64,000 bases of DNA from Quercus robur (lineage: Eukaryota > Streptophyta > Magnoliopsida > Fagales > Fagaceae). The notes below the pieces were generated by a model that did not search any database, was not told the origin of the DNA, and saw only the letters and a list, made by a program, of their open reading frames with translations. The stretch spans positions 83,225,862 to 83,289,861 of the forward strand of contig NC_065535.1 of the NCBI RefSeq assembly GCF_932294415.1, written 5' to 3'. The stretch's first letter is position 1. Every line of letters begins with the position of its first letter. Positions 3,161 to 58,538 of this stretch are shown piece after piece. The translations under genes and the position numbers were made by a program.

Positions 3161-4131
3161 GAGCACTCACATCTGTCTGTGCATAATAGAAAAAAGATGC
3201 AAGATTTACACAATTTAGCCAAAAACTAACCTACATCAGAGAGTGCAAAAGTGTGTAAATATACACATTAGCTACAGTAAACGTGTATATTTACACGGTT
3301 ACTGTAGCTGTGTATTTATATTTTATTAATATTCTGTTTTTGGTTTTACTTTTCTCTCTCCTCTAAGCAAACCGAGTCTCTCTCTATCCTTGTCTCTGTT
3401 CTCTCTTGCTTCTCTTCTCCCTCATTGGTGATCAAGGTCTGGGAGAGCTTGGGCTCATTTGGATTTTCTGGTGGTGGTAAGGAGGTTGTCGAGTAAGGAT
3501 GGGTGCAGATTTGTTTTGGGTAAGGCCAGATATGGGTTTCTTTTGGTGGTTTTGGAAGTTTCGTTGAGATTCATTGACGGCTGTGTTTGCAACGGTGGAG
3601 GAACAATGGTGGCTGATTGATTTTCTGTTTGGGATTGATTGGTGGTAGGATGGCTGATTTTGGGTTTCTCTTAGCTTTGTGGGTTGCATGTTTATAGCTA
3701 TGAATTTTCTAGGTTGCAGGTTTATGGTTATGAATTTTCTGGGTTTATGGGTATGAAATTTTCTAAGTTTATGGGTTGCAACGATTTTCTAGGTTTATGG
3801 GATTGCTATAATTTTTTTTTTTTTTTTTTTTTTTGGGGAATTTTCTGGGTTGTTTATATGATGTTGAGTCTCTGTTACTATAAGATAGAGATTCTAGAGA
3901 TAGGAAGAGAGAGAGCGGAAAAGGATTGAAGGAAAAGAGATAGGAAGAGAGAGAGAGATAGCAGGTTGAAGGAAATAATAAAAAAATATAGAAGAATGAA
4001 TATTTTTTTGAATAAATTTGTAGAATAGATAATCTGATGTGGGTGTTTTGTAAAAGTGATTGTTTAAAATAGAAAAAGTAGGTTCTTTTTGTAAAATAGA
4101 CAGTAATTTTTACACCTGCTAGTGCAATTGC
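3161..4131. mobile_element. Non-autonomous PIF/Harbinger-like element (971 bp)
   Basis: The element starts GAGCACTCACATCTG, ends with the reverse complement of GCAATTGCACTAGC, and is flanked on both sides by TAA, the 3-bp duplication usual for PIF/Harbinger. Its terminal pattern matches the element at 51778-52639. Both share a 36-bp palindrome (here 3272-3307) that begins CTACAGTAA and ends GTTACTGTAG. The interior is CT/GA-rich with no transposase. It sits inside the probable leader intron of the bL36 gene. Confidence 0.7.
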
Positions 4132-11800: not shown

Positions 11801-12820
11801 ATGGCTTCCCACAAGAAGATTGTTGAAGAGGTATCAGGCTGGTTACGTGTTTTTGATGATGGCACAGTGGACCGCACCTGGACGGGTCCACCAGAGGCAG
11901 AGTTCTTGATGAAACCAGTTCCACCTCATGAAGAATTCATTGAAGGGGTTGCAACTCGTGACGTGACCATCAATCCAAACACTGGGCTGGCTGTTCGGAT
12001 TTACATTCCAGAGAAGAACACAGATGGCCAGATCAATAATAAGAATAAGCTTCCTCTCGTACTTCATTTTCATGGTGGTGGCTTTTCCATTAGCCAAGCT
12101 AATTGGTACATGTACTATCACTTTTATGCACGGCTTGTGCGCACAACTTGTGCTGTTTGTGTTTCTGTCTACCTTCCTCTAGCTCCTGAACATAAGCTCC
12201 CAGCTGCATGTGATGAAGCTTATGCTGCGTTCCTTTGGCTTTCTGCTGTGGCTCGTGGTGACTCATCGGAATCGTGGCTCGAGACTTGTTCTGATTTCGG
12301 ACGAGTTTTTCTTATTGGGGATAGCATGGGTGGGAACCTTGTTCATCACATAGCGGCTCGAGCTGGATCTATTGATATCCAACCAATGCAGTTATTAGGT
12401 GGTATAGCATTACATCCGGACTTTCAACGAGCTGAGCCAAGTAAGTCATTTTTAGAAATGCCAGAAACACCCTTGCTAACTCGTGACATGGTAAATAAAT
12501 TCATGTCCTTAGCATTGCCTATTGGTAGTACTAAGGACCACCCAATAACGTGCCCAATGGGCCCACTAGCACCACTGCTCGCAACCCTCAAGCTACCGCC
12601 AATGTTGGTGGTGGTGGCAGAGAACGACTTGCTTCGTGACTCGGAACTTGAGTACTGTGAGGCCATGAAAGAGGCCAAAAAGGATGTGGAGGTTTTGATT
12701 AATCATGGTATGGGACATAGCTTCTATTTTGATAAGTTAGCCATTGACATGGACCCGAAGACAGCAACTCAAGTCGATAAGCTATTTGAGGAAATTACAA
12801 ACTTTATTAACAAGCATTAA
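11801..12820 (+). CDS. HSR203J-like carboxylesterase (plant CXE, alpha/beta-hydrolase fold 3)
   Basis: One uninterrupted 339-residue frame, the usual length for plant CXE enzymes, which hydrolyse carboxylic esters of small molecules in the cytosol. The oxyanion-hole motif HGGG is at 91-94, LAPEHKLPAA at 127-136, the nucleophile Ser175 in GDSMGGN, the acid at about Asp276 (ENDLLRD) and the base His306 (HGMGHSF). The intact His separates it from the GID1 gibberellin receptors, which lost that residue. The N-terminus VSGWLRVFDDGTVDRTWTGP is typical of the HSR203J/CXE group, where defence-related detoxification roles are reported. The start is the first ATG of the frame. A perfect hairpin lies in the promoter. 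The natural substrate cannot be read from sequence. Confidence 0.92.
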   Translation: MASHKKIVEEVSGWLRVFDDGTVDRTWTGPPEAEFLMKPVPPHEEFIEGVATRDVTINPNTGLAVRIYIPEKNTDGQINNKNKLPLVLHFHGGGFSISQANWYMYYHFYARLVRTTCAVCVSVYLPLAPEHKLPAACDEAYAAFLWLSAVARGDSSESWLETCSDFGRVFLIGDSMGGNLVHHIAARAGSIDIQPMQLLGGIALHPDFQRAEPSKSFLEMPETPLLTRDMVNKFMSLALPIGSTKDHPITCPMGPLAPLLATLKLPPMLVVVAENDLLRDSELEYCEAMKEAKKDVEVLINHGMGHSFYFDKLAIDMDPKTATQVDKLFEEITNFINKH

Positions 12821-37038: not shown

Positions 37039-38161
37039 ATGCTCTTGAGCTTTGTTTTCCTGATAATAACAATAACAACGACAACAGTTCTTTGTGGAGG
37101 GTTTTGTGCTTCTGAGGCATTGTTTGGATTTTGTTTCTTCTGGATTATTAGTCTTTGCTCATGCCTACCCTTGTCAATTACAGTGGTAAGCTTTTCTGGG
37201 TCTTTGCTATTTTTTCTGTTTTCCTTTTTGATTAAGTGGTGTTTGATTGGTTTTTTTTTTTTTTTTTTTTGGAGGATTTGGGTTCATGGGGTGTTCTTTA
37301 TTTTTGTTTGATTTTAATGGGTATGTCTTGGTTGCCAATTTAATATTGTATTGATCTGCATGCTCATAGTTTGAGGTCCTGAGTATATTTTTGATATGGG
37401 AATCATCACTGATTTGGATTGTCATAATTGGAAATTGAATCACACTATATTTGTTGATTGATTCTATTAGGTGATATGCTTTAAAACCCACTTCATCCTT
37501 GGGGAAGATCTCTCTCTTTTTCTTTTTCTTTTTTTGTAATAAATTTTTCTGGTACACAAAGCCTATGCCTTTTTTTGTTTATGGGAACATCAAGTAGGAG
37601 CCTTTTAGGTTCAGGAAGATTGTTATTTTATAGAAGAAAACTTGGACATTTATGATCTAATTATGCTTAGAATACATGGTAGATTCTTATTGGATTTGAT
37701 TTGCAGAGTGAAGGAAACTTAGATCCTTTCCTTATGGAGTAACATGTTAGAAATCGTTTTTGTGTGAAAATAATAGATTTAGCTAGTTTTAAACAATTTT
37801 CTTTGCCGATTCCAAAATAAAAAAATAAATTTGTGTGGACAATTTTATCTGATATTATTTTTTGTCATTGGGATTTCAGGTGATGATGAATTCTATTCTG
37901 GGGGTTCTTTTTACCCAAATCCTATGGATTTGGGTTGCTTGTTCTCAATTGTTTCCCAAGTGGATGTGTACTGCCCCCCAAGCAAGCGGCCTCGAATTAG
38001 TGCCCCATTCATCTTTGGAAGAAATGAACTTGAGCAGGACAAGAAACCTTCCATTGAAGTTCTTCCTGATGAATGCCTTTTTGAGATCTTCAGACGCCTT
38101 GATGGAGGCAAAGAGAAGAGCTCTTGTGCTTGTGTCTCCAAGCGTTGGCTTATGCTTTTGA
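37039..38161 (+). promoter_or_regulatory. Possible overlapping upstream ORF in the EBF mRNA
   Basis: An ATG at 37039, 122 bases before the main start and out of frame with it, stays open through exon 1 (37039-37185). After splicing to 37880 it runs on to a stop at 38161, about 143 codons. It would overlap the main start and the F-box part of the coding region. Its context (cagATGc) is weak, and so is that of the main start. It matters only if transcription starts upstream of 37039 and no leader intron removes it; the TTTCAG just before it looks like an acceptor. Confidence 0.35.
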
Positions 38162-39789
38162 GTAGCATCCGTAAGGCTGAAATTTGCCATGAGTTTCCGG
38201 TTTCTAATGATGTTGATATGGTCACTGGTGATGAAGATCAAGATCTTGAAAGTGACGGATACCTTTCAAGGTGTTTGGAAGGGAAGAAAGCTACGGACAT
38301 TAGGCTTGCTGCAATTGCAGTTGGAACTAGTAGCCATGGGGGACTAGGAAAGTTATCAATCCGTGGAAGCAACTCTCTTCGTGGAGTCACAAACCTTGGC
38401 CTCTCATCTATTGCCCATGGTTGCCCTTCTCTTAAGGCTCTTACTTTGTGGAATGTTCCTTATATTGGAGATGATGGACTATCTGAGATAGCTAAAGGAT
38501 GCAATTTGTTGGAGAAGCTTGACCTTTGCCAGTGTCCCACAATTTCCAACAAGGCTTTGATTGCAATTGCAGAGAATTGCCCAAATTTAACTTCTTTGAA
38601 TATTGAATCATGCTCAAAGATTGGGAACGGGGGCTTGGAAGCTATTGGAAGGCTTTGCCCCAAGTTACACAGTGTCTCTATCAAAGATTGTCCCCTTATT
38701 AGGGATCATGGAGTATCAAATCTTTTGTCTACAGCTTCTATGTTGTCAAAGGTCAAGCTTCAGAGCGTGAACATCACAGATTTCTCCCTTGCCGTGATTG
38801 GGCACTATGGCAAAGCTATTACAAATCTAGTCCTTAGTGGTCTCCAAAATGTGAGTGAGAAAGGCTTTTGGGTCATGGGTAATGCTCAGGGTCTCCAAAA
38901 ACTGACGTCGTTGACAGTTACTTCTTGTCGTGGGATAACAGATGTGAGTCTTGAAGCCATCGGGAAGGGATGCATCAACCTGAAGCAGATGTGCCTTCGC
39001 AAGTGCTGCTTTGTATCCAACAATGGAATGGTAGCTTTTGCCAAAGCCGCAGGATCATTGGAGTGCCTCCAATTGGAAGAGTGTAACAGGGTCACCCTAT
39101 CGGGGATTGTTGGTGCCCTCTCAAACTGTGGTACAAAGTTGAAGTCTCTTACCCTAGTGAAGTGTATGGGAATCAGGGATATGGCTTTGGGATTTGCTAT
39201 GCCCTCTCCTTGCACGTCTCTTCGATCCTTGTCCATAAGATACTGCCCTGGATTTGGTACTGCTAGCCTGGCTATGGTGGGTAAGTTGTGCCCTCAGATT
39301 CAGCATGTAGACTTGAGTGGACTTTGTGGGATAACTGATGCTGGGCTTCTCCCTCTTCTAGAGAGCTGCGAAGCAGGACTTGTGAAAGTGAATCTCAGTG
39401 GCTGCTTTAATATCACAGATGATGTAATTTTGGCCTTGGCTAGGCTACATGGAGGAACCCTCGAGCTGCTCAACCTCGAGGGATGCAGGAAGATTACTGA
39501 TGCTAGCTTGGTGGCAATCGCAGACAATTGCTTGTTACTCAACGATCTAGATGTGTCAAAGTGTGCAATCACCGACTCTGGTGTTGCAGTGCTTTCTTGT
39601 GCAGAGCAGCTCAGTCTGCAGGTCCTTTCATTGTCAGGTTGCTCTAAAGTATCAAACAAGAGCATACCTTTCCTGGAAAAATTGGGTAAGACGCTGGTGG
39701 GATTAAATGTCCAACACTGCAATTCAATCAGCAGTAGTACAGTTGAGCTGCTCCTAGACTCTTTGTGGAAATGCGATATTCTCTCCTAA
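37161..39789 (+). CDS. EBF1: EIN3-binding F-box protein (EBF1/EBF2 type)
   Basis: Exons 37161-37185 (MPTLVNYS plus one base) and 37880-39789, junction G|GTAAGC...TTTCAG|GT, give 644 residues, close to Arabidopsis EBF1. The F-box is near residues 60-105 (SIEVLPDECLFEIFRRLDGG...CACVSKRWLMLLSSI). About 18 leucine-rich repeats follow from about 145, starting with GKKATDIRLAAIAVGTSS and GGLGKLSIRGSN, and it ends in the family's KCDILS. EBF proteins are SCF ubiquitin-ligase receptors in the nucleus that target EIN3/EIL1 and so damp ethylene responses. The start is chosen because MPTLVNYSGDDEFYSGG is the N-terminus I recall for tree EBFs; the frame's longer opening at 37831 reads intron. EBF1 and EBF2 cannot be told apart with certainty. 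Confidence 0.93.
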
Positions 39790-51084: not shown

Positions 51085-51741
51085 TGGTGGCGGAAAAAAG
51101 GTGAGAGGTGGTAGCATGAAGGAGTGGAGGAGGGAGCATGAGAGAGGTTGAGAGCAATAATTATCTCATGTATAAGACATATGCATCCTCCATTGCAATG
51201 TGTTACTACAGAGTTGTGTAAAACTTAAGACACTATGAAGGAATGATACATATAGATCTAGTACATATATAAACCTTCTCAGTTGAGAGAAGACACAAGC
51301 TTAGCCCAGAAAATGACTTATGTCTATCGACAATAAGAATCTTTTCCACTAAAAATTTTTGGTTGCACTAAGTATTAAAAAATATGAAAAACCTTTTTCA
51401 AAAATGTTTCACCCCATTACATTTAACGAGTTTCATAAATAATTTTTCTTTAAATAATTAATTACTATAAGAAAAATTAATGATACAAATATAAAACAAT
51501 GGTCATTATCTGGACGACAGGGTGCAATAACGAGTAGTGGTGTAACTGTGTTAGTGTCAGAACTCACAACCCATAACTTAACAGTTAGCATGCATCTTCT
51601 CAATCAATTAGTCCAAAAAAAAAAAATGTACGGGGTTAGTGAATAGCCATGTGGACCGGAATCTAGTACACCTTAGGTTGCAGTGGCAATTTTAAAACTA
51701 TTATTTTTCCAAAAATTTTATAAACGGAACTAATTTTATTT
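51085..51741. other. Purine-rich flank, then AT-rich spacer
   Basis: GGTGGCGGAAAAAAGGTGAG...GGTGGTAGCATGAAGG at 51085-51150 continues the host repeat interrupted by the long LTR. The rest has no recognised feature. Confidence 0.4.
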
Positions 51742-51777
51742 GGGTAAATTTCACAGACCTCCTTTGAGGTTTGGACT

Positions 51778-52639
51778 GCAATTACATTAGTTTGTGTATA
51801 AGATTCCGTCTATTTTATACTTAAAATCTACTTTTTTCTATTTTACACTATTATTTTTACAAAATATTCACATCAGTTTATCTATTTTACAAGGTATATC
51901 AATAAAATATTATTTCTTCTCAATTTTTTTATTATTTCTCTCAACTACTTTTACATACTCTCTCTCTCTCTCTCTCTACCATTTTTTCTGATTTGTTGCT
52001 CTCTCTCTATACCCATCTCTAATCCACACCCTCTCTCTAATATTTGAATCTCTCATGGCCGAATCTCAAGCTTCCACCATCTCCGATCCTCATCAACTCC
52101 GTGACACCCATCCACAGACTGCCACCATCTCCGATCCTTAAAGGAAACGGAGCTTCCTAGCTCCACCTTGACACCCACAGATTGCCACCGATACTCTTTA
52201 CTCTCAAACCACTCTCCGATCTACAAGCCTTGAATGGCGCGTGAACCACAAGAAGTCAAGCACCGATCGTTCTAGTTAAACACCGATCTATCTCTTTGTT
52301 GGTTTGTCTGTGTGGGTTTGTTTGTGTGTTGATTTGTCTGTGTGGATGTGTTTGTATGTGGGTGTGTTTGTGTGCATCTGAGGAAAAAGAAGATGAGGAG
52401 AGGAAAGTCACTGAGTTCGTTGTGCACGGAGAAGTGAGAGAAAAAAAGGTGCGAATGGAAATTAATAAAATAATAAATACACATGCTACAGTAATCGTGC
52501 ATATATGCACAGTTACTGTAGTAATTGTGTATTTATACACAAGTTTGCACCCACTGATGTGGATGATTTTTTAATCAAATTGTGTAAAAGTAGTTACTTT
52601 TTCCATTTTGCACATTTATGCACAAGCTGATGTAATTGC
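51778..52639. mobile_element. Harbinger-like element nested in the left TIR of the Pack-MULE
   Basis: The ends GCAATTACATTAGTTTGTG and (reverse complement) GCAATTACATCAGCTTGTG agree over about 24 bp. The flanks ACT and TCT replace the single ACT expected from the intact right TIR. A 36-bp palindrome at 52486-52521 (CTACAGTAAT...GTTACTGTAG) is shared with the element at 3161-4131, at the opposite end. The interior has CT and GTGTGTTT repeats and no transposase. Confidence 0.8.
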
Positions 52640-53377
52640 TCTAATACCAATAAAGTCCACAACATTTAAAAAGTGACCATTTTGGTCCTTATTTCCAAAC
52701 GGTTTGTAACACCGTTACATACCCTGTGTCCTCCCTCTCACCCCTCTCTTGAGTCTTCTCTCTTCCTTTTCTCTAATTCAGAGAAGAAGAAAAAATTGAA
52801 GAACAGAACCCACAAAGCCAATGACCCGACCCAGCAAAACCCACAAAAAGCCAACGACCACCAACCACCAACCACCAGAAAAACCTAGAAAACCATCAAT
52901 CACTAGCAAAGCAATGACATCAACAAAACCCACAAACTTAGAACCAACGACCACCAACAAAACCCATAAACCCATCAGCAATACCGACCATCCCACAACA
53001 AACCCAAAACCTGAAACACAAACCAAAACCCACAAAAATCCAACACACCCACAAAAAACCAAATTCTCTATCACCAATCCAAACCAAAACCAACCCACTA
53101 CAAAACCCACCACCACAGCACCACCGCAAAGAGGAAGAGAGAAGAGAAATTGCAAACCCACCACCATGGCGCCATATTTGAGTAGAGGAGATTGAAACGT
53201 CGCCAAATCTGAACGAAGGAAAGTGATACGTTACCGGTCTAAGCTTAAACATCGCCGGATCTAAGCGGGTTTTAGAAACTCCTCTCACTCACTACTCACT
53301 AAAACTTAAACTCATCGCTCAAAACTTAGGCATTGATAAAAGCACCGTGCCAGTGATCGAAACACACACCCATAACA

Positions 53378-53518
53378 ATGGTGGCGACAAACATGAAATT
53401 GGAGATGATGGCTCTGATGGACAAGAGGAGCGCCTTGGAGGCCGAGATAAACGCCATCATCGACCGCCTCTGCCAGCTTGGCGACCCTAGCCTTTCCGGC
53501 AATCTCGTCAATTCTGAG
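53378..53518 (+). pseudogene. Captured first exon of a PSMD9/Nas2-like 26S proteasome assembly chaperone
   Basis: Forty-seven codons starting MVATNMKLEMMALMDKRSAL, continuing IDRLCQLGDPSLSGNLVNSE, then GTCTCTTTC as a plausible donor. This matches the N-terminus I recall for plant PSMD9-like proteins, where LSGNLVDSEGFPR spans the same point. Family members assist assembly of the proteasome base and carry a PDZ domain further on. No later exon, PDZ domain or PRxD-type region lies before the right TIR, so it is a fragment. About 190 bases of upstream sequence and some intron probably came along. The frame itself is open, so the donor gene may still exist elsewhere. Confidence 0.75.
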
Positions 53519-53588
53519 GTCTCTTTCTTCTTTATCTTTCAATTTTTGATTTTTTGAAATTGTGAGTTATGAGTGATAATATGCACTC

Positions 53589-53593
<5 letters not shown>

Positions 53594-53662
<69 letters not shown>
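53594..53662. repeat. GA microsatellite in the Pack-MULE
   Basis: About 34 uninterrupted (GA) units, likely highly variable. It creates false RERERE and SLSLSL open frames on the two strands. Confidence 0.95.
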
Positions 53663-53667
<5 letters not shown>

Positions 53668-53745
53668 TTCTGGAGTGAGGAAAGAACAAAGAAGAAAAAA
53701 AAAAGTAACGATGTTACAAACCCTTTGGGAAAAAGGACCAAGATG

Positions 53746-54406
53746 TAGGGATGGCAATGGGGAAAGGCGGGGCCAAAGGATGGGGTCTTCATCCCCACCC
53801 CGCATGATTTTGTCTTGCCCCATCTCCACCTCGCCCCGCATAACAGGAAAAACTTTCTCACCCATCCCCACCCCTTGGGGCCTTGCGAAGCCCCGTTCCA
53901 TCCCGTAAAACTCTACTTTTTTGTTAATTTACCCTACAACTAGTACAATTTTTTTTTTATGAATTCATTAATAAAACTATATTTGAAATTACAACTAAAT
54001 TTATCCCATCAAATCAAATCAATTTTTAGAAAAAATTAAATAATATATCCAAATATTTAACAAGACAATTAAAAAAAATAAAAATCTCATAGTTCTCATA
54101 GTATAACACATAACAAAATAAATGTAGAAAACCACATTGGGTAGAATAAAATATGCTAATATTAATATGTTTGTTTAAATAGTAGTGTTTTAGGGTATGA
54201 AAAATTTACAATTATAACCCTTAGTAATGCAGGGTAGGGCGAGGATAGGAGGGGCGGGTCTAAAAAGTCTAAACCTATCCCCGCCCCGCCCCGTGGTGCG
54301 GGGCTAAAATCTTGCTCCATCCCCGCCCCACCACTTTTACGGGACGAGAAAAAACCCGCGCGGGGAAGGGTGGATTGAGCAGGGCGGGGAAAAATTGTCA
54401 TCCCTA
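53746..54406. mobile_element. hAT-type MITE nested in the right TIR of the Pack-MULE
   Basis: The ends TAGGGATGGCAAT and (reverse complement) TAGGGATGACAAT are flanked by CCAAGATG and CTAAGATG, an 8-bp duplication with one difference. Both ends are rich in GCGGGG/CCCCGC words and the middle is AT-rich. No coding. Confidence 0.8.
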
Positions 54407-54572
54407 CTAAGATGGTCACTTTTTAAATGTTGTGAACTTTATTAGCATTAGCCCAAACCTCAAGGGAGGTTTGTGGAATTTACCCATTTTATTTTATTTT
54501 TTAAATAATTATTTAATGTTGCTGAATATAATCGGCGAAAAATGTAATGAGTTTATTTAAAAGTGACATATA

Positions 54573-58041: not shown

Positions 58042-58538
58042 ATGAAGAAAGGATTGATGGCTCCATCAGGAAATGAGCTTAATGGGCTAAGGATTGCAGT
58101 CATTGTGATACTTTTCTTTTCTCTCACATTCTTTCCTTCCAAATCAGGTAAACACAGGAAATATAAACCCTTTTAAGCACTGGTAAAGTACCTATATAGT
58201 GTTTTGTGTCTTGCATTTTATGTCACAGCTTAATTATGATATATTCGCAGAACTAAGCCTTACTGTTTTGTTTTGTTTTGCTTTGTTGTGATCCATTGGC
58301 AGATGGGTCAATGTTACTAAGAGATAGTGATCATGAGGGTGTGAAGCAAATGAAATTGGTGTTGGGTTCAAAACCTCCTCGGTGTGTTAACAAGTGCTTG
58401 AGTTGCAAGCCCTGCAGTGCTGCTTTAGTTACATCTCCACACCATAGAAAAGAATTCCAAGCATCATTTCAGCGAGATGAGAGTTATTATCTTCTCTCAT
58501 GGAAATGCAAATGTAAAGATAAGTATTTCCAACCTTGA
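58042..58538 (+). CDS. EPF-like secreted cysteine-rich peptide (EPFL8-like)
   Basis: Exons 58042-58147 and 58303-58538, junction TCAG|GTAAAC...GGCAG|ATGG, give 113 residues from ATG 58042; an in-frame ATG at 58057 would give 108. A hydrophobic segment (RIAVIVILFFSLTFFPS) is the likely signal peptide. The mature C-terminal domain reads GSKPPRCVNKCLSCKPC, a loop, then YYLLSWKCKCKDKYFQP, with six cysteines spaced C-3-C-2-C-2-C...C-1-C as in EPF/EPFL peptides. These are apoplastic ligands of ERECTA-family receptors that pattern stomata and organs. The loop and C-terminus look closest to EPFL8 from memory; the member assignment is less sure than the family. Confidence 0.85.

Follow-up and report, generated by a model that had tools for sequence, protein, structure and literature searches.

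The window, a 64-kb stretch of DNA (C2:83225862-83289861, plus strand) from a 785.7-Mb assembly of 42 contigs, contains plant genes as neighbours of the element, among them an alpha/beta hydrolase at 11801-12820 and an F-box/LRR frame at 37831-39789. An exon for an EPF-family peptide (PF17181, 71.4 bits) is found at 58257-58535 on the plus strand, ~3.8 kb past the right end of the element analyzed here. This element, at 51742-54485, is a Mutator-type element within an exact 9-bp target duplication, as given in a preliminary description of the sequence. Its parts are listed in Table 1.

Table 1. Parts of the element and its target duplication (positions in the window).
Feature	Position	Strand	Remarks
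Target duplication ATTTTATTT, left copy	51733..51741		9 bp, exact
Left arm (TIR), outer piece	51742..51777	+	Pairs with right arm
Nested repeat N1, high-copy family	51778..52641		864 bp; TAA/TTA flanks in relatives
Left arm (TIR), inner piece	52642..52718	+	Arm pairing
Element interior, common to relatives without PSMD9	52719..53282	+	
Captured PSMD9 leader (5' untranslated) DNA	53283..53377	+	95 bp
Captured PSMD9 exon 1, open	53378..53518	+	47 codons
Captured start of PSMD9 intron 1, with GT donor	53519..53583	+	65 bp
Right sub-terminal element sequence, with (GA)n tract	53584..53704	+	
Right arm (TIR), inner piece	53705..53745	-	Arm pairing
Nested hAT-like repeat	53746..54406		661 bp; 8-bp flank duplication CCAAGATG/CTAAGATG
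Right arm (TIR), outer piece	54415..54485	-	Arm pairing and 21-bp end pattern
Target duplication ATTTTATTT, right copy	54486..54494		9 bp, exact

The arms pair in three blocks: 36 bp at 51742-51777 with 54450-54485 (89%), 46 bp at 52641-52686 with 54406-54451 (89%) and 41 bp at 52678-52718 with 53705-53745 (88%). They look broken because two insertions split them, N1 on the left and the hAT-like repeat on the right. With the insertions removed, the coordinates give arms of ~112 bp (36 + 77 bp left, 41 + 71 bp right). Thus, the pairing over about 112 bp described earlier holds once the insertions are set aside, but not for contiguous arms. One degenerate pattern fits the terminal 21 bp of either arm; at up to three mismatches it occurs twice in the window, compared to 0.01 matches expected from shuffles. 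Subtracting both insertions leaves an element of 1,211 bp, equal to the length of a sister element on contig C35. The longest frame inside the element (ATG, GTG or TTG start) has 142 codons, and a Pfam scan of 8 element frames found no transposase, all matches being under cut-off.

A search of the assembly with the interior of N1 gave 277 first-look candidates, of which 40 were scored. By eye, family members read GAGCAATTACAT...ATGTAATTGCTC between TAA or TTA; among 8 loci inspected in this way, four relatives (L047, L048, L050 and L052) have a 3-bp TAA/TTA flank duplication and short inverted ends. The left flank of N1 in the window copy is changed relative to these. From the flanks as read, N1 is a presumed PIF/Harbinger (Tourist-like) repeat. 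A relative of N1 occupies ~3178-4131 of the window (minus strand). The ends of the two repeats are alike (73% over 247 columns and 78% over 155), their middles are unlike, and they possibly represent a further element type with swapped interior. The insertion in the right arm is flanked by CCAAGATG (53738-53745) and CTAAGATG (54407-54414), which are equal at 7/8 bases and appear as surplus bases in the arm alignment. We take its ends to resemble those of hAT repeats.

The assembly was searched with the DNA of 53190-53590, which the preliminary description had assigned to PSMD9 leader, exon 1 and intron 1. Of the 23 match rows, one is the window itself, those on C35 and C6 cover the whole query, and C3 matches in two rows. 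The donor row (C2:87831711-87832028) covers query positions 94-394 only, and 17 further rows are restricted to query 1-89 (53190-53278), which is element sequence. Together these rows place the PSMD9 part at 53283-53583, preceded by element sequence; the assignment is therefore correct from 53283 to 53583 and not for 53190-53282. The donor is an intact PSMD9 gene on the same contig, 4.55 Mb from the element, and aligns with the leader, the exon 1 and the intron 1 part of the capture. Its coding exons (C2:87826946-87831926, minus strand) number five, with lengths of 141, 61, 105, 370 and 22 nt, GT-AG introns and a 232-aa frame. The encoded protein matches Nas2_N at 78.3 bits (cut-off 23.2) as well as PDZ models, the latter under their cut-offs, and its best PDB matches are two 26S proteasome regulatory subunit p27 chains. 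No second intact PSMD9 gene was present among the 23 rows.

The captured stretch is 87% identical to the donor (BLAST) and retains intron DNA in the form of the start of intron 1. When the 64-kb window was searched with the host PSMD9 protein (tblastn), exon 1 alone matched and later PSMD9 exons were absent, in line with the earlier account of an open exon representing the start of PSMD9 and lacking a later exon. Note that, by itself, this exon of 47 residues is recognised only weakly: it reaches 15.5 bits with Pfam Nas2_N, under the cut-off of 23.2, and PSMD9/Nas2 was not among the matches listed in a PDB sequence search. The PSMD9 identification therefore rests on the donor gene. A SipA-model match (14.5 bits) to the read-through frame was dismissed as chance; the donor gene fixes the identity. 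The GC content of the donor is 63% in exon 1, 49% in the captured stretch and 35% for the gene to its stop. These values agree with the uptake of GC-rich parental DNA by MULEs that is reported in portions of PMC4858842.

Sister elements with the same arms, which the preliminary description had proposed to look for, were found at other loci. We retrieved 30 loci by the element interior and checked them for arms, capture and filler. The ten nearest comprise four with PSMD9 (the window copy and one each on C35, C6 and C3, contigs other than that of the window) and six with another filler (L017-L021 and L025); the other 20 loci (19 places) matched neither PSMD9 nor the filler reference. The two junctions enclose 174 bp of filler in L013 and 177 bp in L014. 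These loci contain the elements also seen as L017 and L018, the length of ~175 bp thus being measured in two. A readable pair of ends was obtained for 20/30 loci, corresponding to 19 distinct elements (L026 and L027 are one), and 10/30 were without a pair. The 9-bp duplications are exact in 16/20 loci (15/19 elements) and match at 8/9 positions in the other 4, with none lower. When the flanks of 18 loci were wrongly paired, 4/306 pairs were exact and 30/306 matched at 8/9 or better, so that in this AT-rich DNA an 8/9 match alone is weak evidence. The window, C35 and C6 elements have different exact duplications; that of the C3 element lies in an A-rich flank, is shifted and matches at 8/9. Among the 40 of 198 arm candidates that were scored, none was an autonomous MULE with these arms, the widest pair spanning ~1.9 kb.

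Two of the relatives show additional structure. L020 (C4:66202062-66202513), which is of the filler type, has three tandem arm copies at a spacing of 186 bp, with an identical 9-base sequence ahead of each. In the C6 copy (L022 2096-2873), the left arm lies ~0.8 kb from the element's end; the intervening DNA is probably a further insertion.

The right capture junction reads TATGTACTCA, or a variant with one change, in all four PSMD9 elements. In C35 and C6, donor TATGTAGTTG and acceptor TATGGACTCAG are joined as TATGTACTCAG, from which the window copy (TATGCACTCA) and C3 (TACGTACTCA) each differ by one base. The left junction, GGGTTTT...ACTCCTCTCAC, is common to the window copy, C35 and C6. 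In C3 (L012 3700-3720 / L024), a deletion has removed the leader and the larger part of exon 1 from the capture, with intron 1 and the right junction kept. One capture event for all four elements is the simplest reading of these junctions. A truncated segmental duplicate of PSMD9, placed between repeats by chance and without transposition, would fit the donor's location on the same contig. However, the similarity ends at 53283 and 53583, within the arms, and the right junction recurs in three more copies on other contigs, of which two have exact 9-bp duplications. Because of the common junctions and separate duplications we consider this alternative refuted, with a residual probability close to nil. 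A Pack-MULE carrying PSMD9/Nas2 exon 1, as originally suggested, is thus upheld by the donor gene elsewhere and the sister elements. Neither of the two findings named as contrary to it was made: exon 1 has a PSMD9 homologue, and no complete PSMD9 gene runs through the right TIR. The preliminary description identified the kind correctly and was close to right in its details.

With four elements sharing one right junction and six carrying another filler at this place, replacement of element sequence appears probable. The PSMD9 DNA would then have taken the place of element interior, as gap-filling models predict. At the right junction, donor and acceptor strictly overlap by a single base, and at the left junction one or two bases fit cleanly to neither; microhomology is therefore weak. 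In a tree of the common interior (11 rows), 0/8 inner branches were well supported, and the order of filler first and PSMD9 second thus rests on parsimony.

Arm pairing spans 181, 179 and 186 alignment columns in C35, C6 and C3, respectively. Pairing in the five filler relatives measured extends over 108, 81, 77, 112 and 110 columns; the arm of C2b is interrupted. The extra left-side part in C35, C6 and C3 resembles their right sub-terminal region. It ends with GAGTAC (AAGTAC in C35), which by eye is similar, over six or seven bases, to the right capture junction read as its reverse complement. If this likeness holds, the right-to-left arm conversion came after the capture. The left side of the window copy is that of the filler relatives. 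C35 and C6 also have in common a frameshifting 2-bp deletion in exon 1, and four same-base changes that are missing from the window copy.

Relative to the donor, the window copy carries 26 changes over 303 ungapped columns; C>T or G>A accounts for 21 of them. Thirteen changes fall in exon 1, 9 altering amino acids and 4 silent. The silent share (4/13) compares with 45/141 of transition sites (binomial p = 1.0), suggesting that exon 1 decays as if neutral; on thirteen codons, a small sample, weak selection stays compatible. The exon might still work, giving rise to a short peptide or to a chimeric mRNA that starts in the element and is read from the arm, as its frame is open with its own ATG and the GT donor following 53518 is kept. 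Against this, most of the exon changes alter amino acids with a silent share as without selection, C35 and C6 are frameshifted and C3 is without most of exon 1. Moreover, the capture begins ~18-25 bp downstream of what by eye is a TATA-like stretch in the donor, and this TATA was therefore left out. Judged by these sequences we regard a working exon as very unlikely, and neutral decay of the frame makes a protein product unlikely.

Alternatively, the four copies may supply small RNAs acting on PSMD9 mRNA. The window, C35, C6 and C3 copies have 16, 24, 31 and 1 21-mers in common with the donor stretch, respectively, with longest exact runs of 28, 34, 31 and 21, and captured sequences in maize can be siRNA reservoirs that silence donor genes, according to passages of a 2026 review (PMC13317346). 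The strong C>T decay, however, is the usual fate of a silenced repeat, and such a role appears improbable, if somewhat less so than a working exon.

In conclusion, the element is very probably a non-autonomous Mutator-like element (Pack-MULE) with a gap-filled PSMD9 capture, moved in trans and later decayed. We infer that, in an ancestor, ~300 bp copied from PSMD9 genomic sequence closed a gap within an existing MULE of the family, with leader, exon 1 and the start of intron 1 replacing ~175 bp of its interior. Transposase acting in trans would then have mobilised this chimera. In the line leading to the C35, C6 and C3 sisters, a copy of the right sub-terminal region would later have overwritten its left counterpart. 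The window copy received two smaller transposons, one per arm, and is losing cytosines in the manner of methylated repeats. Arms, duplications, donor gene, common junctions, relatives with the other filler and decay are seen directly in the sequences; the gap-filling route, the supply of transposase in trans, the succession of events and methylation as the source of the C>T excess are inferred.

The kind of event is familiar and the case is clear; the copied piece looks decayed, not working. Its main interest is that donor gene, apparent acceptor form and chimera can be compared within one plant genome, as Pack-MULEs are well described in rice and the route of DNA pick-up is still disputed. 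We give about even chances to a joint reading in which one genome keeps most stages of Pack-MULE birth (donor, relatives with the replaced segment, copies with the same junction and later arm conversion) and in which the right-to-left conversion tract ends at the capture junction. If true, the gap-filling model could be tested base by base, and capture would be shown as interior replacement, not addition. Annotators can mistake the open exon 1 for a PSMD9 gene or for a small protein.

The Pack-MULEs of rice and other plants, as portrayed in parts of PMC8903248 (on Pack-TYPE annotation), PMC4858842 and PMC13317346 (a review of gene capture and siRNA reservoirs), have the same long arms, 9-bp duplication and lack of transposase. 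They are likewise multi-copy, with a host piece that was acquired as genomic DNA from the GC-rich 5' portion of a gene. The present element is of the same kind, with donor and other-filler relatives visible in one genome. The PM-ZIBP family and the tandem-TIR MULEs of tomato, described in sections of PMC3310237, also represent multi-copy dicot Pack-MULEs with a gene fragment, and the tandem arms resemble those of L020. In contrast to PM-ZIBP, another gene is captured here, and tandem arms occur on a relative without capture. Gap filling and fork switching are set out for the origin of Pack-TIR elements in animals in excerpts of PMC8277862, where the origin of Pack-MULEs is called unsettled. 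These models involve the same copying of interior DNA from an unlinked locus. The animal data give a median microhomology of 2 bp, compared to one strict base at the right junction of the PSMD9 capture.
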